From Bacteroidia bacterium (GTDB taxonomy: Bacteria > Bacteroidota > Bacteroidia > Flavobacteriales > Flavobacteriaceae), in contig JAUIAY010000009.1 of assembly GCA_030425285.1 (NCBI GenBank), forward strand, positions 1 through 64,000: a stretch of 64,000 nucleotides of DNA, written 5' to 3'. Every line of letters begins with the position of its first letter. The first letter of the stretch is position 1. This document shows positions 1 to 9,109 of the stretch, piece by piece. The translations under genes and the position numbers were made by a program. The notes beneath the pieces are model-generated. The model was not told where the DNA came from, made no database searches, and saw only the letters and a list, made by a program, of their open reading frames with translations.

Positions 1-1055
1 ATTGACCGTTACAGTCACTGAATCTGAATCAGATACATCTCCTTCACTTACGGTTACTGTATAAGTTGTTGTATTATTTGGACTTACTGTTATACTTTGT
101 GTGATTTCTCCTGTACTCCATTCATAGCTGGAACCTCCAGAAGCTGTCAAGGTTGTACTCTCACCTTCGCAGATGGAAACATCATTTCCTGCATTGGCTG
201 TTACCGTCTCATTGGATTCTACAGTTACCGTTACCGAGTCACTGCTCGTACAACCGTTTGAACTCACCTCTACACTATAGGTCGTAGTCTCACTTGGGTT
301 GACCGTGATACTTTGGGTTGTTTCTCCGTTACTCCACTCGTAATCATCTCCTCCTGTTGCTGTCAAGGTTGTGCTCTCGCCTTCGGTTATTGTCACGTCG
401 TTTCCTGCATTGGCAGTTGGCAATGGATTGACCGTTACAGTCACTGAATCTGAATCAGATACATCTCCTTCACTTACGGTTACTGTATAAGTTGTCGTTT
501 CGCTTGGACTGACCGTTATGCTTTGTGTCGTTTCACCTGTACTCCACGCATAATCCGATCCTCCTGATGCAGTTAATACCACAGTATCATTCTCACAAAT
601 GGCTACGTCCTGGCCTGCATCGGCTTCTATGGGAGTCGGTATGACAGTTACTGTAACAGTATCTTCAGCCATACACCCATTTTGAATGACAGAAACAGTA
701 TATGTAGTTGTTTCATCTGGACTAACTGTAATACTTTGAGTATTGGCTCCAGTATTCCATTCATAAGAACCTCCTCCGGAAGCCGTTAATGTAACAGAGT
801 CGCCTTCATCTATTGTAACATCATCACCAGCATTAGCACTTGGTAATGGATTGACAGTTACGGTAACAGAATCTGTAACACTATTTCCTGAATTATCTGA
901 TAGGGTTACAGTATATGTTGTGGTTTCGGAAGGAGAAACTTCTATGTTTTGAGAGTTTTCACCTGTACTCCAAGAAAAATTTGAACCACCTGTACCATAA
1001 GCTGTTAAATTGGTTGATTCTCCTTCACAAATTGCAATATCATTACCTGCGTTAA
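1..1055 (-). repeat. Tandem PKD-like domain repeats in an alternating A/B pattern
   Basis: Five units of about 210-217 bp start near 1055, 838, 624, 415 and 198 (reading leftward). They alternate. A-type units have a Cys early (ICEGES or ICENDT) and no late Cys. B-type units have no early Cys (TIDEGDS, TITEGES) but a late NGC. The dimer period is about 426 bp: bases 1-69 are identical to 427-495, which suggests recent duplication or recombination of an A+B unit. The array continues beyond the left edge. Confidence 0.85.
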
Positions 1056-2316
1056 CAGTCATTCCTACATTATTTTGAGGAAATTCCAAAACAAATGCTG
1101 GCGCACTCGTTTGATTTGTTTGTGTAGGGTCATTCCAATTACTGGCAAAAATCATTTTAGTACCATTTCTATTAGGGACTACCTGTGTTTCGTGTAAGTA
1201 ACCTGTTGGAGCAGAATGGTGCTTGCCATATCTTTCAATAGTTCCAGAGTTGTCCAATTTTATAGCAAATATTTCTCTTGGAGCAACTGGATTAGAAGAA
1301 CAGCATTGTTCACTTACATAGGCCCAACCTGGTCTGTCAATATTACGTGTAGAAACATGACCTCCCCAAATACCACGCCCATTGACATAAGGAAATAAGT
1401 TGGTCATTCCACCGCCATCCAATCGAACCATGTACATACTGTAACCTGCATCCCATTGCGCTTGATCTCCATAACCAACAAAGACTTCGTTACCAAAAGC
1501 ATCATATCCCAAATCACCATGAGGCGTTGTATCGGCTAGATGTCTTTCATTTTGCATGTTAATATCATAGGATTTTAATCCTTGATTTGGTCCTGACCCA
1601 TCTGTTCTCCAACATAAAACAGCATATTCACCAGATTGCGAAACTGAAAACCAGTCTAAATCACCACTTGGGATGACCATAGAACCTGTAACAACATCAT
1701 TTTGGATATCATATACAAAAACCGTTTTTGTGCTTCCACTTTGGCCTATCAACCCTACATATCTATCATCATTGGATTGATTACCTTCTCCATAACCAAA
1801 ATCGACACTCGAATATTCTGAAAACGTTCGAAGTGTAGTTCGTTGATTTGTTGTAACATCAAACGATTGGAAATTGTTGCTACTACCACCGTACAATATG
1901 TGAGGATCTGTATTGGCCCAACGTCCGTATCCCGGAATATTGGCCCAGTATAAAAACTCATAAGTTTCAGCATCCAAAATAGCTGCTGGATGCCCAGATA
2001 ACTTTATAAGAGTTTCGTCAGAATTCCAAGTTTGATCCTTGGAATAGTTATGACGAATCCTATTGGAATTCGTTCCAAAAACATTTCGGTCACCGATTCT
2101 CCTTACCGTACTACCTGATAAACCTTCAGTAAAGGGTTCAAGGTAATCAGGCATAGATTCAGAAGGTGGCTGATAGTTTTGATAATTTACATTGGATAAT
2201 TGTTCTTGCGTCGGATAATTCTGACCGTTCATCGATAAAATTCCACAAAACAAACAAGTGATTACTATGAAATTCCTGATTATCAGAAATTCCCTCTGGA
2301 GATAAAAGTTCTTCAT
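1..2316 (-). CDS. Secreted protein, beta-propeller-like N-terminus plus PKD-like repeats (3' end outside window)
   Basis: An open frame of 772 codons runs from an ATG at 2316 off the left edge, so the C-terminus is missing. The N-terminus has basic residues followed by a hydrophobic stretch (about residues 12-29, ending near SMNGQ), which reads as a signal peptide. Residues about 30-415 contain repeated Trp/Tyr/Gly-rich strands typical of a beta-propeller (for example WANIPGYGRW and SVSQSGEYAVLCW); I do not recognise the family. From about residue 420 there are five PKD/Ig-like repeats of about 71 residues with motifs such as EGESTTLTASGG and TTTYTVTVS. Proteins of this build in flavobacteria are usually secreted by the type IX system and carry a C-terminal sorting domain, which would lie outside this window. 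It is transcribed away from the polysaccharide locus, so a link to that locus is unproven. Confidence 0.85.
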   Translation of the reverse strand, partial: MKNFYLQREFLIIRNFIVITCLFCGILSMNGQNYPTQEQLSNVNYQNYQPPSESMPDYLEPFTEGLSGSTVRRIGDRNVFGTNSNRIRHNYSKDQTWNSDETLIKLSGHPAAILDAETYEFLYWANIPGYGRWANTDPHILYGGSSNNFQSFDVTTNQRTTLRTFSEYSSVDFGYGEGNQSNDDRYVGLIGQSGSTKTVFVYDIQNDVVTGSMVIPSGDLDWFSVSQSGEYAVLCWRTDGSGPNQGLKSYDINMQNERHLADTTPHGDLGYDAFGNEVFVGYGDQAQWDAGYSMYMVRLDGGGMTNLFPYVNGRGIWGGHVSTRNIDRPGWAYVSEQCCSSNPVAPREIFAIKLDNSGTIERYGKHHSAPTGYLHETQVVPNRNGTKMIFASNWNDPTQTNQTSAPAFVLEFPQNNVGMTVNAGNDIAICEGESTNLTAYGTGGSNFSWSTGENSQNIEVSPSETTTYTVTLSDNSGNSVTDSVTVTVNPLPSANAGDDVTIDEGDSVTLTASGGGSYEWNTGANTQSITVSPDETTTYTVSVIQNGCMAEDTVTVTVIPTPIEADAGQDVAICENDTVVLTASGGSDYAWSTGETTQSITVSPSETTTYTVTVSEGDVSDSDSVTVTVNPLPTANAGNDVTITEGESTTLTATGGDDYEWSNGETTQSITVNPSETTTYSVEVSSNGCTSSDSVTVTVESNETVTANAGNDVSICEGESTTLTASGGSSYEWSTGEITQSITVSPNNTTTYTVTVSEGDVSDSDSVTVTVN

Positions 2317-2752: not shown

Positions 2753-3847
2753 TTGAATAAAAGTAAGATTGCTTTTTTATTACCTAGTCTTGAAGCCGGA
2801 GGTGCAGAGCGTGTGGTTGCAACACTTTCCAACAGTTTAGTAGAGCATTATGATATTACAATTATTGCTCTCTATGAAAGCCCTGTTTTTTATGATATTG
2901 ATCCCAAAATAAATGTCCTTTTTTGTGGAGGTAGCTATGAACCTGTTTTTAGTTTAAAACATTCATTAAAAACGCATTTCAGGTTAATACGTACAGTTAT
3001 AAAGTTCTTGAAAAGGCATAAAATAGATGTGGTGATTGGTTTTATGATTACGCCAAATATCTACGCCGTTATAGCATCCAAATGGGTTAAAATACCTTGT
3101 GTTATCAGTGAACGTGTTCATCCAGACTATATTGACACATCCAAATTTTGGTTTAAATTGAGGAAGTTCCTTTATCCATTAGCCAATCGTTTAGTTGTTC
3201 AAACTAATGATATTGCCGAATACTTTTCTAAATTCGTGAATGATAATAAGATTCAAATTATTCTAAATCCATTAAGTCCTGAATTAATACAAAAAAAGAA
3301 TCATACAGTTCCCAAAAAAAACATAGTATTGAATGTTGGACGATTAGATTATCAAAAAAATCAAGATATGTTAATAAACGCATTTGCCAATACCAGACAT
3401 GAAGGTTGGAAATTGGTAATTGTAGGAGAAGGCAAGGAAAGAGAGCATTACAATAGTTTAATTGATGAACTACATTTAAATGACAAAGTACAATTGGTGG
3501 GTAATAGTACCAATATTGAAGATTTTTACAACAAAGCAAGTGTTTTTGCTTTTACATCAAGGTATGAGGGGTTTCCAAATGCATTAACCGAAGCCATGTA
3601 TTTTGGTTTGCCTTGCATATCAACCGATTGCCCTTCAGGTCCTTCTGAACTTATAGCAGATTCTGAAAACGGTTACTTGATTCCTATTGAAAATCAAAAA
3701 TTACTGGAAGACAGATTAAATATCTTGATGAGCAGTACTGAATTAAGGATTAAAATAGGTTCGGAAGCCGAAAAAAACACAGGAAAATTTAAAATTGAAA
3801 ATGTAGCCAAACAATGGCAGGAAACCATAAACAATCTATTGAAATAA
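2753..3847 (+). CDS. GT4 family glycosyltransferase
   Basis: This 364-residue GT-B fold enzyme probably adds one sugar to the lipid-linked repeat unit on the cytoplasmic face of the inner membrane. Family signatures are the N-terminal glycine loop EAGGAER (14-20), NVGRLDYQKN (195-204) at the start of the nucleotide-sugar domain, and EGFPNALTEA (273-282) with the two glutamates of the GT4 EX7E motif. The start is TTG: an in-frame stop lies five codons upstream and no ATG is available near the N-terminus. It is the first gene of the plus-strand polysaccharide operon and is separated by one base from the next gene. The donor and acceptor sugars cannot be read from the sequence. Confidence 0.88.
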   Translation: MNKSKIAFLLPSLEAGGAERVVATLSNSLVEHYDITIIALYESPVFYDIDPKINVLFCGGSYEPVFSLKHSLKTHFRLIRTVIKFLKRHKIDVVIGFMITPNIYAVIASKWVKIPCVISERVHPDYIDTSKFWFKLRKFLYPLANRLVVQTNDIAEYFSKFVNDNKIQIILNPLSPELIQKKNHTVPKKNIVLNVGRLDYQKNQDMLINAFANTRHEGWKLVIVGEGKEREHYNSLIDELHLNDKVQLVGNSTNIEDFYNKASVFAFTSRYEGFPNALTEAMYFGLPCISTDCPSGPSELIADSENGYLIPIENQKLLEDRLNILMSSTELRIKIGSEAEKNTGKFKIENVAKQWQETINNLLK

Positions 3848-3848
3848 T

Positions 3849-4814
3849 ATGGACATAAAATCATTAATTCCAAGATATACTGCGCAACCAGAGAATCTAT
3901 ATGATTATACCTTTACCGTCTTTACACCTGTTTATAATAGAGCAGATACTATAAAGCGAGTGTTTGATTCACTTGAAAAGCAAACCTTTAAAGATTTTGA
4001 ACTACTTATAATCAATGATGGCTCTACGGATAATTCTCATGCTGGGATTGAAACTTTAATTAAGGAATGCTCTTTTCCAGTGCGCTATATAAACAATAAA
4101 GAAAATAAGCATAAAATGGCTTGCTTGCTCCAAGGGGTTGAACTAGCTAAAGGTAAATTTTTCCTGACATTTGACTCCGATGATGAATGTACCGAAGATG
4201 CTCTAGAGGTATTCAAGAATACTTATGATGCTATTCCTGATGATAAAAAGGATAGTGTTTGTAGTTTGACTTGCCTTTGCAAAGACCAATTTGGAAGCTT
4301 AGTAGGTGAAAAATTTGACACAGATTTATATTACAGTTCCACATTTGGTAACATGATACAGAACCGATATAAAAATGAAAAATGGGGTTTTACCAAAACC
4401 GACGTTTTAAAAGGTGTCTTTATTAATGACTATTTATTTGCAAAAGGTTATATCCCTGAAGGCGTTATTTGGAATTTGCTTTCTAAAGAGGGCTTTAAAA
4501 CGCTTTATTTTAATAACATTTTGCGCATTTATTATATAGATACTGAAAACAATATATCTTCAGGGCATATAAAAAACAATGCGCTTGGACTGGCAATTTA
4601 TTCATTAGGCAATATCAATTGGTTTTATAAAGACTATTTCTTTAAAAATCCAATATTGTTCTTAAAGCAAGTTTATTTACTCTTGCTTTCTTCAAAATAT
4701 TTAAGTTTTAAAAGATATGAATACAGCAAGGCTATAGAGAGTATTTTTTTTAGGTTGATTTTTAATGTTTGTTGGCCATTCAGATTCTTAATTACCCCAA
4801 AATCCATTTCATAG
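3849..4814 (+). CDS. GT2 family glycosyltransferase
   Basis: This 321-residue protein has a GT-A fold. It opens with FTVFTPVYNRADTI (22-35), followed by NDGSTDNS (56-63) and the DSDDE metal/nucleotide-binding segment (109-113), all typical of inverting GT2 enzymes. It has no signal peptide. A hydrophobic C-terminal stretch (about 255-310) may sit on or in the membrane. It lies one base after the preceding GT4 gene and directly abuts the flippase gene, so all are likely co-transcribed. It probably contributes one linkage of the polysaccharide repeat unit. The substrate is unknown. Confidence 0.87.
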   Translation: MDIKSLIPRYTAQPENLYDYTFTVFTPVYNRADTIKRVFDSLEKQTFKDFELLIINDGSTDNSHAGIETLIKECSFPVRYINNKENKHKMACLLQGVELAKGKFFLTFDSDDECTEDALEVFKNTYDAIPDDKKDSVCSLTCLCKDQFGSLVGEKFDTDLYYSSTFGNMIQNRYKNEKWGFTKTDVLKGVFINDYLFAKGYIPEGVIWNLLSKEGFKTLYFNNILRIYYIDTENNISSGHIKNNALGLAIYSLGNINWFYKDYFFKNPILFLKQVYLLLLSSKYLSFKRYEYSKAIESIFFRLIFNVCWPFRFLITPKSIS

Positions 4815-6155
4815 TTGCTACGCATAAAAGACATAAAATCCATAATCCAAAAAACTTTTAAAAGTTCTTTAGTGGTAAATATTACCACAGTGGCCTTGAT
4901 TACTATTTTGGTAAAAGGATTTGGTTTTTATAAGGAGGTCGTTATTGCCTCCAATATTGGACTTTCTGAATTATTGGACACCTTTTTTATCGCTTTACTA
5001 CTTCCAGGATTTATTAATCAGGTTTTTTTAATTGCATTCAAATCGGTTTTTATACCAAACTATGTTGCTGAATTAAAAGGAGGAAACAATGTAGGAACTG
5101 TGCAATCTACTAGTTTTTTGATTACACTAGTTGCTGGCATAACTTTTACAGGAATTGCATTTTTATTTACAGATGTGTTCTTGGATTTGTTTTTTGCAGG
5201 TCATACAGAAGATTATTATAATCTCATTAAAACACAGTTTTATTTTCTGGCACCTTGCATTGTTATTTGGGGCTTTTGTGCCCTTTTAGAAGGTATTTTA
5301 AACATTTATAATGAATTTAAGTTTGCCTCAATACACCCTATCTTAACATCAATAGCCATGCTAGTTTGCCTTTTAGGGTTCAAGGAACAACTTCAGGAAA
5401 AAGTATTAGCTGTTGGAATGCTGATTGGTTGCTCTTTAGAACTGCTCCTATTAGCTTCTGTTTGCTTTTACAAAAAGATTATTGATCTAAAAAAAGTGGA
5501 TTTTCAAAACAAGAATGTAAGAATAATGTTCAATCAATTACCTGCTAGGGTTTCTTCTGGATTCTTGACCGGTTTAATTCCTGTAACAGACCAATACTTT
5601 GCTGCAACCTTGGCCATTGGATCCATTGCAGCCCTTAACTATGGAATGAAAATACCTGCATTTTTTTCGTCGATTATTGTTATGGCTTTGGGCAGTGTGC
5701 TACTTCCCTATTTTTCCAACCTAAACTATGACAATAGGGAATTGGCGTTTAAAAAATTAACAACTATTTTGAAAGTATTATTTATTTCACTTATAGTTGT
5801 CGTTATACCATTAATAATTTTTTCTACACCAATTATATCCATTCTTTTTGAAAGAAATGCTTTCAAAGCAGATGATACTGCTTTGGTCGCCAATATTCAA
5901 ATGATTTTTTTAATAAGTATTCCATTTACTATTTGCGGTGATGCTATTGTAAGGTTTTTGACAAGTATCAACAAAAATGCTTTTTTGGCCTATGTTTCAT
6001 TCGGAACCATGCTGTTTAACTTTATACTTGATTATATTTTTATGCAGTTTTATGGTATTTTAGGAATCGCTATCTGTACAACCGTTGTACAAATATTGAA
6101 AGTCCTTGTTTTTATGCAATATGCCAGAAAGCAAAAAAAAACTTCTGTAATATAA
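4815..6155 (+). CDS. MurJ/MviN-type lipid-linked oligosaccharide flippase
   Basis: This 446-residue polytopic membrane protein has about 12-14 predicted helices. The N-terminal part (LVKGFGFYKEVVIASNIGLS, then DTFFIALLLPGF and FKSVFIPNYVAEL) follows the MurJ/MviN pattern of the MOP superfamily rather than the usual Wzx pattern. Its place among glycosyltransferases and directly before a Wzy-like gene argues that it flips the undecaprenyl-linked repeat unit of this locus, not lipid II. The TTG start directly follows the previous stop codon, which supports translational coupling. A true cell-wall MurJ would usually sit outside an exopolysaccharide locus. The substrate assignment is inference. 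Confidence 0.8.
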   Translation: MLRIKDIKSIIQKTFKSSLVVNITTVALITILVKGFGFYKEVVIASNIGLSELLDTFFIALLLPGFINQVFLIAFKSVFIPNYVAELKGGNNVGTVQSTSFLITLVAGITFTGIAFLFTDVFLDLFFAGHTEDYYNLIKTQFYFLAPCIVIWGFCALLEGILNIYNEFKFASIHPILTSIAMLVCLLGFKEQLQEKVLAVGMLIGCSLELLLLASVCFYKKIIDLKKVDFQNKNVRIMFNQLPARVSSGFLTGLIPVTDQYFAATLAIGSIAALNYGMKIPAFFSSIIVMALGSVLLPYFSNLNYDNRELAFKKLTTILKVLFISLIVVVIPLIIFSTPIISILFERNAFKADDTALVANIQMIFLISIPFTICGDAIVRFLTSINKNAFLAYVSFGTMLFNFILDYIFMQFYGILGIAICTTVVQILKVLVFMQYARKQKKTSVI

Positions 6156-6156
6156 T

Positions 6157-7263
6157 ATGAAAGCGCTAAAATACTTATTGCTCATATTAATTTTACTAAA
6201 TATACCCACATTTAGCATAGCATTCATTAGCCCTGGATTAGGCAGCGCTACTAGTATGCTTTTATTGCTCTGCGTAATTATTTTCTATTTTATGGAAGAA
6301 AAATTACGTCCAATAATCCCACTGGTTATTTTAGGACTCAGCTATTACATGATATCTAGTTTAAGTTATACAGAAGACACTTCTGAGTTTATTAAAGATC
6401 TTATTAAATATTTCATTTTTATTTTGGGTATCAGGAAGTTTGCCTCGCTAACATCTAAACAGGAAATTTGCTTTATACTATTGGTAGGTGCATTTAGTAT
6501 TATAATAAATGCACTACTCTTTAGTAGTGCTTTTGGTCGTTACAGTGGTTTTTATGTAAACCCAAATAAAGCTGGGTTTGTTTGCATAATTGGTTTCGCG
6601 TTAACTTATAGTATTAAACAAAAAAATATAAAACTACTATCACAATTCCTTTTTGCAATTGCAGGACTTATGACATTATCCAGATCATTTATATTGCTCT
6701 TTGTTTTGGTGAATATCATTTCAATTGTAATTGATAAAAAGAATATTATCACCCTTGTTTCAGGTGTCATCGCATTAGTACTTATTTTGAGTTTATCAAG
6801 CCTACAGCTTAACACTGATAGGTTCAATGCCCTAAAGAGTATCTTTTCAGATGATGTAGATACGACAACTATTACCAAAGAATCGAGAGATGAAACTTGG
6901 GCAATCTATATTGATGATATATTAACAAACCCAATTTTTGGAAAAGGCTACAAAAAACTGCATGGAAAACCTAAAGGTTTCTATGCTGATAATGATATTG
7001 GCGTTCACAACGCGTTTTTAATGATTATCGGTGAGGCTGGTATTATTCCTTTAATGATAATTGTTGTTTTATATTTATCAATGTTATTCAGGAGTTTTAA
7101 TATTTTCCACGAAGAACCCATTTATTTTTTAGTATCACTATTACTATTATCATACTTGATGGTTAGTCATAACTATTTTGATAATTTTCTAATGTTATTT
7201 TTGACCGTCTGGCTTTATGATAAATTAAAATCACATGATAATACTTCATTAAACACAATATAA
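6157..7263 (+). CDS. O-antigen ligase/polymerase (Wzy-like) membrane protein
   Basis: This 368-residue protein is almost entirely hydrophobic, with about 10-11 predicted helices and one large periplasmic loop (about residues 225-285). The region around GRYSGFYVNPNKAGF (about 127-141) and the loop with VHNAFLMIIGEAG (about 285-297) match the O-antigen ligase/polymerase superfamily, where His and Arg residues in the loop serve catalysis. It lies one base after the flippase and one base before an asnB-like gene. In a Wzx/Wzy-type pathway it would join repeat units in the periplasm. Ligase activity cannot be excluded, but position and the single copy favour polymerase. Confidence 0.78.
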   Translation: MKALKYLLLILILLNIPTFSIAFISPGLGSATSMLLLLCVIIFYFMEEKLRPIIPLVILGLSYYMISSLSYTEDTSEFIKDLIKYFIFILGIRKFASLTSKQEICFILLVGAFSIIINALLFSSAFGRYSGFYVNPNKAGFVCIIGFALTYSIKQKNIKLLSQFLFAIAGLMTLSRSFILLFVLVNIISIVIDKKNIITLVSGVIALVLILSLSSLQLNTDRFNALKSIFSDDVDTTTITKESRDETWAIYIDDILTNPIFGKGYKKLHGKPKGFYADNDIGVHNAFLMIIGEAGIIPLMIIVVLYLSMLFRSFNIFHEEPIYFLVSLLLLSYLMVSHNYFDNFLMLFLTVWLYDKLKSHDNTSLNTI

Positions 7264-7264
7264 T

Positions 7265-9109
7265 ATGTGCGGAATCTACGGTATAACATATTCTAAATAC
7301 ACTTCTGATCAAATTTCAGAAAAACTCAAGCGCATTGAATTCAGAGGTCCCGATTTGAGTGCTCAAAAAACAATAAACAATCGTATAGTTTTTGGACACA
7401 ATCGCCTGTCCATTATTGATTTGGATCCACGATCTAACCAACCTTTCTCTTATCAAGACAAAGTACATATCGTTTTTAATGGGGAAATCTTTAATTTCAA
7501 ATTATTAAAATCTGACTTAATCAAAAAAGGTTACCCTTTCTACACAGAAAGTGACACTGAAGTTATTTGTGCAGCTTATTTGGAGTATGGTGACAATCTT
7601 CCAAATGTACTAAATGGTATGTTTGCTTTTGTTATTTATGACCAAACAAATAATAAATTATTTGGAGCAAGGGACAGGCTAGGTCAAAAGCCATTTTACT
7701 ATTTGTTGAATGACGATGGCTTTGAATTTTCAAGTCAACTTTCTGCCATTCAACTGTACAATACTAATTTGACTATTTCTAGTAAATCAATTACCCAATA
7801 TTTTGCTTGGGGAGCTATCCCTGATCCAAACACTATTTTTAATGAAGTTAAAAAATTGCCCGCAGGCAATTGCTTTACATTTGATATTGATCGTAACGTA
7901 TTAGACATTACACAATATTGGGATATTAATAGTGAAAGGACAAAGCTGTTTACAGGTTCATTTCAAGAAGCCAAATCGGCTCTAAATGAGCTTGTTCAGG
8001 ATGCTGTAAAAATCCGATTGTTTGCCGATGTGCCTGTTGGTGTGTTTTTATCAGGCGGTATTGATTCCTCTTTGATAGCTGCTATGGCTCAAAACACAAC
8101 TAATAGTCAGGTAAAGACTTTTTCGGTGAAGTTTAATGAGAAAGGTTTTGACGAAAGTATCTATGCGCAAAAAGTAGCCGACCATCTAAAAACAGACCAT
8201 CACGTCATATCATGTAATTATAATGAAGGTTTAGATTTAATAGATAGCTTTAGTCATTACTATGATGAACCATTTGCTGATTCTTCTGCAATTCCTTCCA
8301 TGTTACTGTCAAAATACACCAAGAAGCAAGTTACTGTTGCTCTTTCCGGTGATGGAGGTGACGAAATGTTTATTGGTTATCACAGATACCATTGGATGAA
8401 GCAAGTAAGCCCTTTATACAGGACGCCTAAATCGTTGCGCCAACTTACTTCATTTCTTTTGAATGCTGTTCCGCATTACAAATTAAAAACCATATCAAAG
8501 GGACTTCGTTTTAACGATTTGGATAGTCTTTATTTGGCATCCGTTACTGGGATTGATGCCAGTTGGATACAATCAGATTACGATTATTTAAACGTATCTG
8601 AAAGATCCTATTTAGAGCATAAAGACAAGAACATTTATGAGCGCATGTCAGATTTTGACATCAAGGCTTATTTAAATTGGGATATCAACACAAAAGTAGA
8701 TCGCGCTACCATGGCTTATTCATTAGAAGCTAGATCACCATTAATGGACTATCGTGTTGTGGAATTTGCTCAATCACTACCAACCCATTTTAAATACAAA
8801 GGCAGCAATCAAAAAATTATATTGAAAGATATCCTATATGATTATGTTCCTAAAGAATACTTTAATAGACCGAAATCTGGATTTACTATGCCTTTTTCAG
8901 ATTGGTTTAGAAATGAACTTAAGGATTTGGTGCTATCTGAATTGAATGAAGACGGTTTAAATCAAATTCCCAATATTAATGTTAATGAAGTGAAAACACG
9001 TATAGACCAACACATGAAAGGCACTTGGAATAGATACCCCTTGATTTGGAAACTATTGGTTTTAAAACAGTGGCTCAATAAAAATGGAAAGGGATATAGC
9101 ATTATCTAA
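7265..9109 (+). CDS. asnB: Asparagine synthase-like glutamine amidotransferase (copy 1)
   Basis: This 614-residue protein is a full-length class B asparagine synthetase-type enzyme. MCGIYG supplies the N-terminal nucleophile Cys2 of the glutaminase domain, with RGPD (27-30), NGEIFN (72-77) and SDTEV (96-100). The synthetase domain has the pyrophosphatase loop SGGIDSS (263-269). Such enzymes transfer glutamine-derived ammonia to an ATP-activated carboxylate. In polysaccharide loci they often amidate uronic acid carboxyls (WbpS-like) rather than aspartate. Its stop overlaps the next start (TAATG), so it is tightly coupled to the following glycosyltransferase gene. Whether the substrate is aspartate or a uronic acid cannot be decided from sequence alone. 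Confidence 0.85.
   Translation: MCGIYGITYSKYTSDQISEKLKRIEFRGPDLSAQKTINNRIVFGHNRLSIIDLDPRSNQPFSYQDKVHIVFNGEIFNFKLLKSDLIKKGYPFYTESDTEVICAAYLEYGDNLPNVLNGMFAFVIYDQTNNKLFGARDRLGQKPFYYLLNDDGFEFSSQLSAIQLYNTNLTISSKSITQYFAWGAIPDPNTIFNEVKKLPAGNCFTFDIDRNVLDITQYWDINSERTKLFTGSFQEAKSALNELVQDAVKIRLFADVPVGVFLSGGIDSSLIAAMAQNTTNSQVKTFSVKFNEKGFDESIYAQKVADHLKTDHHVISCNYNEGLDLIDSFSHYYDEPFADSSAIPSMLLSKYTKKQVTVALSGDGGDEMFIGYHRYHWMKQVSPLYRTPKSLRQLTSFLLNAVPHYKLKTISKGLRFNDLDSLYLASVTGIDASWIQSDYDYLNVSERSYLEHKDKNIYERMSDFDIKAYLNWDINTKVDRATMAYSLEARSPLMDYRVVEFAQSLPTHFKYKGSNQKIILKDILYDYVPKEYFNRPKSGFTMPFSDWFRNELKDLVLSELNEDGLNQIPNINVNEVKTRIDQHMKGTWNRYPLIWKLLVLKQWLNKNGKGYSII

Follow-up and report, generated by a model that had tools for sequence, protein, structure and literature searches.

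The locus raises the question of how two cysteines that are divided between neighboring repeat domains could be bonded: to each other across the domain boundary, or not at all. The gene concerned lies at the start of the window, by which we mean the whole stretch of 64,000 nucleotides that was analyzed. In the window's list of open reading frames it is found on the minus strand, beginning with an ATG at position 2316 and still open at position 1; base 1 of the window is also base 1 of contig C10 in a genome of 3.12 Mb, for which Hanstruepera and Bizionia (Flavobacteriaceae) are the closest named relatives. The predicted protein begins with an N-terminus that appears hydrophobic by eye, continues with a domain of some 385 aa that is conserved, and ends in five successive Ig-like units of about 70 aa each (Table 1). 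The complete list of cysteines after residue 380 is C430, C548, C574, C689 and C716, and these occupy early, late, early, late and early positions in the five units. The initial annotation had proposed a strict alternation of units with only the early Cys (A) and units with only the late Cys (B), and this was borne out over all five units. The extent of 1-1055 that it gave for the array was nearly right, as the array spans positions 1-1065.

Table 1. Coordinates of the repeat protein gene, its units and its unit cysteines in the window; the cysteine partners are predicted.
Feature	Position in window	Strand	Remarks
Repeat protein gene (T9SS-secreted product), 5′ part, running off the contig end and resuming on C16:2-1357	1..2316	-	ORF; contig-end overlap; sorting domain on C16
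N-terminal domain, residues 33-417, kept in genus (5/5 genomes)	1066..2220	-	Start at residue 33, after the hydrophobic stretch, set by eye
Unit A1, early Cys only, residues 418-490	847..1065	-	
Unit B1, late Cys only, residues 491-560	637..846	-	
Unit A2, early Cys only, residues 562-631	424..633	-	
Unit B2, late Cys only, residues 632-701	214..423	-	
Unit A3, early Cys only, residues 704-772, cut by contig end	1..207	-	
Cys430 (early, A1), predicted partner Cys548	1027..1029	-	Pairing inferred
Cys548 (late, B1), predicted partner Cys430	673..675	-	Pairing inferred
Cys574 (early, A2), predicted partner Cys689	595..597	-	Pairing inferred
Cys689 (late, B2), predicted partner Cys574	250..252	-	Pairing inferred
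Cys716 (early, A3), predicted partner the late Cys of the next unit, past the window on C16	169..171	-	Pairing inferred

The remainder of the gene was found on a second contig, C16, whose first 211 positions share 99.5% identity with the reverse complement of C10:1-211. The C16 part (C16:2-1357) contains units in the order A B A B A with cysteines at residues 14, 129, 156, 271 and 296, followed by Cys355 directly behind the final unit and then by a T9SS sorting domain (TIGR04183, T9SS type A sorting, residues 375-450, 43.4 bits vs a cut-off of 23). A T9SS sorting domain is also present in the ortholog of H. ponticola (L020). Counting the units beyond the window had been suggested as a check on the alternation, and the alternation continues there unbroken. 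If the overlap of C10 and C16 represents a single unit, the whole array would contain nine units, as in H. ponticola; further A+B pairs may have collapsed at the join. Searches with the N-terminal domain found nothing in Pfam, nor any PDB sequence at E 0.1. It carries an adjacent Cys pair in the motif EQCC (residues 338-339, window 1300-1305), which is kept in the orthologs that were viewed in full.

At the DNA level, bases 1-69 are exactly repeated at 427-495, with the first mismatch at 70/496 and a period of 426 bp. This is the sole exact direct repeat of at least 25 bases within 1-1065 at spacings of 100-899. A duplicated dimer of about 426 bp had been proposed, and both the exact identity and the period hold, but over its full length the dimer is no recent duplicate: an ungapped comparison of dimer with dimer gave 213 matching bases of 426, and BLAST gave 70% identity over 566 bases. 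No array was called in the window by TRF.

In terms of family assignment, the label "PKD-like" given to the units is in part justified, as the window protein scores 34.8 bits against K319L-like_PKD (PF22352; gathering cut-off 27 bits). However, FixG_C (44.4 bits) and Ig_7 (PF19081; 38.6 bits vs a gathering cut-off of 27.3) score higher, DUF5959 passes its cut-off as well (34.0 bits), and PKD_4 (PF18911) was absent from C10:1-1065 and C16:1-1357, with five matches elsewhere in the genome. Because several unrelated Pfam models pass, no single family is picked out by Pfam. The window protein resembles the CHU_C-associated Ig-like repeats of Ig_7 in scoring above the cut-off of that model, and its ortholog L020 reaches 49.9 bits. 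It differs from them in that other models pass too, with FixG_C higher, and in that units of the phylum sample mostly carry both cysteines, which here are split between neighbors.

Orthologs of the window protein were compared for unit number and array ends, a comparison of copy number among relatives having also been suggested at the outset. The named records L016-L022 contain 11, 9, 9, 9, 9, 3 and 9 units, each with strict alternation, an A unit at both ends and a Cys 1-2 residues past the final unit. The same ends were observed in two congeners with nine (L194) and seven (L195) units, and in L178, from the genus of B. echini, with nine. Thus, the unit count is odd (3, 7, 9 or 11) and a terminal Cys is present in all ten repeat-bearing orthologs that were read. 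A further ortholog, from an Oceanihabitans relative (L023, 493 aa), consists of the N-terminal domain and the C-terminal tail with zero repeats. Since L023 is free of repeats and the other orthologs differ by pairs of units, the stalk is optional and varies in length by pairs.

For arrays from the family at large, units were typed as E (early Cys only), L (late Cys only) or b (both Cys). A profile of ten A and B units (labeled A3, as distinct from unit A3) was searched against 149 Flavobacteriaceae genomes, 120 of which gave a match, and the arrays taken were the best-scoring places among the matches listed for that profile. High-scoring arrays from 24 genomes (29 stretches), two family arrays from the phylum search and seven orthologs were combined and, with L067 excluded as identical to L018, formed a first set of 38 ORFs with at least two units, comprising 339 units and 293 junctions. 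In the alignment labeled A1, the last four residues of row L021 are misplaced and were kept as such. Over all units read, 763 of 840 unit cysteines fall at model positions 14 and 59. The arrays in 32 of the 38 ORFs are strings of E b...b L modules, mostly ending in E plus a Cys, while the other six are almost all b. When each junction was scored for an early Cys in unit n and a late Cys in unit n+1, both were present at 180 junctions, only the early at 2, only the late at 1 and neither at 110, so that 290 of the 293 junctions fit the rule that the two occur together. Both early-only junctions belong to L126, in which the late Cys is shifted by a longer loop, and the lone late-only junction involves a unit cut by the contig start. 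Widening the late position to 56-61 gave 182, 0, 1 and 110 (292 of 293 fitting), and a rebuilt profile gave the same picture for the family (186, 0, 2 and 110). The alternation in the window is, as read from these arrays, one case of a wider rule, in which unit n has an early Cys if and only if unit n+1 has a late Cys.

The prediction and all definitions were fixed before a second, test set was examined. Of 397 family genomes searched, 57 matched at E 1e-20. The test arrays come from the 16 genomes that had places among the matches listed and no earlier array, and from two congeners, while 12 of the 57 (nine of them new in this search) had no place among the matches listed and contributed no array. 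All 212 unit cysteines of the test set fall at the two model positions. The junction counts were 97, 0, 2 and 64, and the rule fits 161 of 163 junctions in a set that is partly independent, since the window protein has three of its orthologs among the 19 arrays (L178, L194 and L195), and some of the remaining arrays come from genera already represented in the first set. Both misses involve a cut unit: in each case the ORF begins at a contig end and its residue 1 already belongs to the unit. For the seven test arrays from six genera in which no array had been read before, 67 of 68 junctions fit, and the miss is again a cut unit. With the widened late position, three misses are left overall, all of them units cut by contig ends.

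Within-array shuffles produced a mean of 113 discordant junctions of 260 in the first set and 70 of 161 in the test set, vs 0 observed, where the junctions are not independent because of shared ancestry, module copying and selection by an A/B-unit profile. The shuffles leave out the all-b ORFs (L084, L085, L092, L093, L094 and L095) and the cut units, and use the wider late position for L126. The order of the cysteines exceeds chance: it recurs in the ten repeat-bearing orthologs, and shuffling within arrays fails to give the rule. A pattern restricted to the window protein was rejected, as both-Cys units stand under the same rule in 18 of 32 first-set arrays and 12 of 19 test arrays.

The regions outside and between the units were also compared. 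In family runs that end in an early-Cys unit, a Cys lies no more than 8 aa away in 24 of 31 cases, and the seven exceptions are all in b-type arrays that are followed by another domain; the tail Cys is present in the ten orthologs and on C16 as well. Runs that end without an early Cys have a nearby Cys in three of six cases and none in the other three. At the opposite end, no upstream Cys was found for 26 of 28 first units that lack a late Cys (the other two have one), while first units with a late Cys have an upstream Cys in six of seven cases, the seventh (L087) starting near a contig end. Linkers at linked junctions are 9 residues long in 148 of 171 cases (range 8-11); those at unlinked junctions vary between 7 and 13 residues, and 39 of 105 have 9. 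In six of the arrays listed, 9-residue linkers occur at linked and unlinked junctions alike, bar an 11 in two of the six. Two small groups of arrays have ends of other kinds. L086, L090, L183 and L193 (EbL, EL, EbLEL and EbL, respectively) are flanked by two cysteines, one a short distance ahead of the first unit and one, in the motif GC[TS]Y, soon after the last; these two may bond to each other. In L084 and L085 the first both-Cys unit opens with a further Cys, a mirror of the tail Cys behind the last A.

If the bonds were formed at the other kind of junction, between the late Cys of B and the early Cys of the next A, the partners would be only 26-27 residues apart (548-574 and 689-716). This proximity is the attraction of such a pairing. 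It was nevertheless rejected and seems to us hardly credible, as 62 of 293 junctions in the first set and 45 of 163 in the test set are discordant with it, the first A and the tail Cys would be left unpaired in each ortholog, and the linkers vary in length exactly at that junction.

Structures were predicted with AF2 for the window's five units together with 20 related rows (mean pLDDT 94.0, pTM 0.50; four models at pLDDT 91.6-94.0 and one at 64.1). In the numbering of the model, strands 10-13 and 154-157 end with the early Cys13 and Cys157, and Cys299 is found just past strand 296-298, while the late Cys131 and Cys272 open strands 131-142 and 272-283. The usual Ig topology puts the early and late positions at opposite poles of a domain. 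With this topology applied to the predicted strands, the early Cys would adjoin the following domain and the late Cys the preceding one. A second model, of the last three units and tail of L020 (mean pLDDT 87.9), places Cys211 just past strand 199-209, with low confidence for residues 213-224.

GhpA of Aureispira (PDB 9flp and related) was the top PDB match by sequence for the five units (E 2.5e-70) and the top Foldseek match for both models. Like the window protein, it is a chain of Ig-like domains, and the likeness extends to both sequence and fold. It differs in its size of 5898 aa and in a whole-chain TM-score that is low (0.39 by query length), and neither a single window unit nor the both-Cys consensus retrieved it at the thresholds used. 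No paper devoted to the GhpA structure was present among the literature matches listed. GhpA is the nearest relative with a solved structure, and its eight entries together contain 56 chains. Related stalks may therefore bundle, and the cysteines might then pair between molecules or else bind metal. We consider this very unlikely, as interchain bonds would need neither the neighbor rule nor a tail Cys beside the last A.

The explanation that we regard as best, and as very probably correct, is that interdomain disulfides join the early Cys of unit n to the late Cys of unit n+1, giving locked A+B pairs, free B-A joints and a cap by the tail Cys. The initial annotation had left it undecided whether interdomain disulfides form or none do, and the comparative data (the neighbor rule and the shuffles) clearly favor the former. 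On this view, a surface protein secreted by the T9SS would have the array as its stalk. In unit n, strand A′ ends at the early Cys, which would lie at the C-terminal pole of the unit; in unit n+1, strand G begins at the late Cys, which would lie at the N-terminal pole. The disulfides in the window would most likely be those between the partners of Table 1. The B-A joint would be free of bonds, with a linker of variable length, and is likely a hinge. The last A, with no B behind it, would bond to the Cys directly past its own last strand, and the both-Cys units of Flavobacteriaceae would be the middle links of longer chains. We propose that such bonds, combined with the A/B alternation, result in covalently locked A+B pairs, and copy number would then shift by whole pairs because other changes leave a Cys unpaired. 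Counting against this reading, DSBA, VKOR and Thioredoxin_4 gave zero matches in the genome at E 0.001. The low pTM and the one poor AF2 model, the exceptions to the caps in the family, the missing caps in the phylum sample and the uniform 9-residue linkers of six arrays weigh on the same side.

The same order of cysteines might be a product of history only, if an A+B or E-b-L module had a single origin and was then copied whole by unequal recombination, with no Cys bond shared between its units. The exact 69-base repeat at one period and the identical dimers inside L016 and inside L020 are what such copying would leave, and a slight excess of within-type similarity between groups remains when the Cys columns are omitted (E-E 0.570, L-L 0.534, E-L 0.527). 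However, modules vary in length (E-L, E-b-L, E-bbbb-L) and yet their intact junctions obey the rule; the nearest neighbor in another group is of the same type for only 226 of 338 units; and neither the tail Cys behind the last A nor the near-constant linkers at linked junctions are accounted for. History without bonds is therefore, in our estimation, unlikely.

Outside the family, the rule could barely be tested, because most units there carry both cysteines: 220 of 244 in the phylum sample, with junction counts of 150, 2, 6 and 2. That both-Cys units are common in relatives, as the initial annotation assumed, holds for this wider sample. Its further assumption that such units are the norm, and split units a departure from it, probably does not hold within Flavobacteriaceae, where both-Cys units sit inside E-b-L runs: pairing of early(n) with late(n+1) consumes the cysteines of these runs, so that there the both-Cys unit is probably not the normal case and the split no departure. 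The all-b arrays of the phylum fit both readings, a chain of interdomain bonds and bonds within units. Run ends in the phylum sample were mostly without caps: a tail Cys is missing behind 30 of 34 terminal early-Cys units and an upstream Cys before 26 of 31 first units with a late Cys, and many of the uncapped runs extend into domains outside the reach of the profile. In two ORFs of L147 and in L142, b b L ends before a TFSPNNDG stretch, which we take to be the start of a CHU_C-type domain, and this is the ending that a chain would be expected to have.

The abundance of both-Cys units in the phylum is also what would be seen if the bonds formed inside each unit that has both cysteines, the split units having lost one Cys and carrying a free thiol. 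Bonds inside one unit were rejected for the family, where a Cys would be left unpaired in 258 of 339 units of the first set and 148 of 182 of the test set and the neighbor rule would go unexplained. In addition, the predicted strands, read with the usual Ig topology, would set the two cysteines at opposite ends of a 12-residue strand. We hold this alternative to be extremely unlikely.

It is plausible that the pattern of cysteines affects the stiffness of the stalk. If interdomain disulfides of the proposed kind do form, the pattern could be a code for stiffness, a wider claim to which we would give an even chance. E b...b L modules would be stitched rods of at least two domains, L-E junctions would be hinges with variable linkers, the order would evolve by copying of whole modules with Cys end caps, and the common both-Cys repeats in Bacteroidota would likewise form unbroken stitched rods rather than being bonded within each domain. 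One could then tell from the sequence of many Bacteroidota surface proteins which cysteines pair and in what order stiff and flexible joints follow. This would correct the assumption of a bond between the two cysteines of one repeat, which matters when single domains are excised for expression, and would explain the change of copy number by pairs. For bacteria that glide or attach to surfaces, covalent stitching would suit stalks under load.

There are precedents for covalently stiffened Ig-like stalks. An Ig-like adhesin of Mobiluncus mulieris is a tandem Ig-like stalk with covalent cross-links, as is proposed here, but the ester, isopeptide and disulfide bonds described for it are within domains and its interdomain linker is called flexible (PMC10619420). 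RTX adhesin stalks likewise have stiffened joints between successive beta-sandwich repeats; there it is reportedly calcium in the linkers, not disulfides, that stiffens them (PMC7493085). The gliding and T9SS envelope of Flavobacterium, in the same family of bacteria, has functional disulfides in a system of adhesin transport, but those reported connect SprF (the carrier) or PorG to GldK and lie outside the adhesin stalk (PMC12635249). No Cys rule between neighboring repeats was described in the titles and abstract beginnings of the literature matches listed, and among those matches the neighbor rule is apparently new.

Two minor observations were also made. An ELELE array with a tail Cys (L124) is found at a contig start in a genome from another class of the phylum, where either transfer or contamination could have placed it. 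In the window itself, positions 2753-9109 contain in a row two glycosyltransferase-like ORFs, flippase-like and polymerase-like membrane proteins and an asparagine-synthase-like ORF, and judged by eye from the translations this region looks like a surface polysaccharide cluster.
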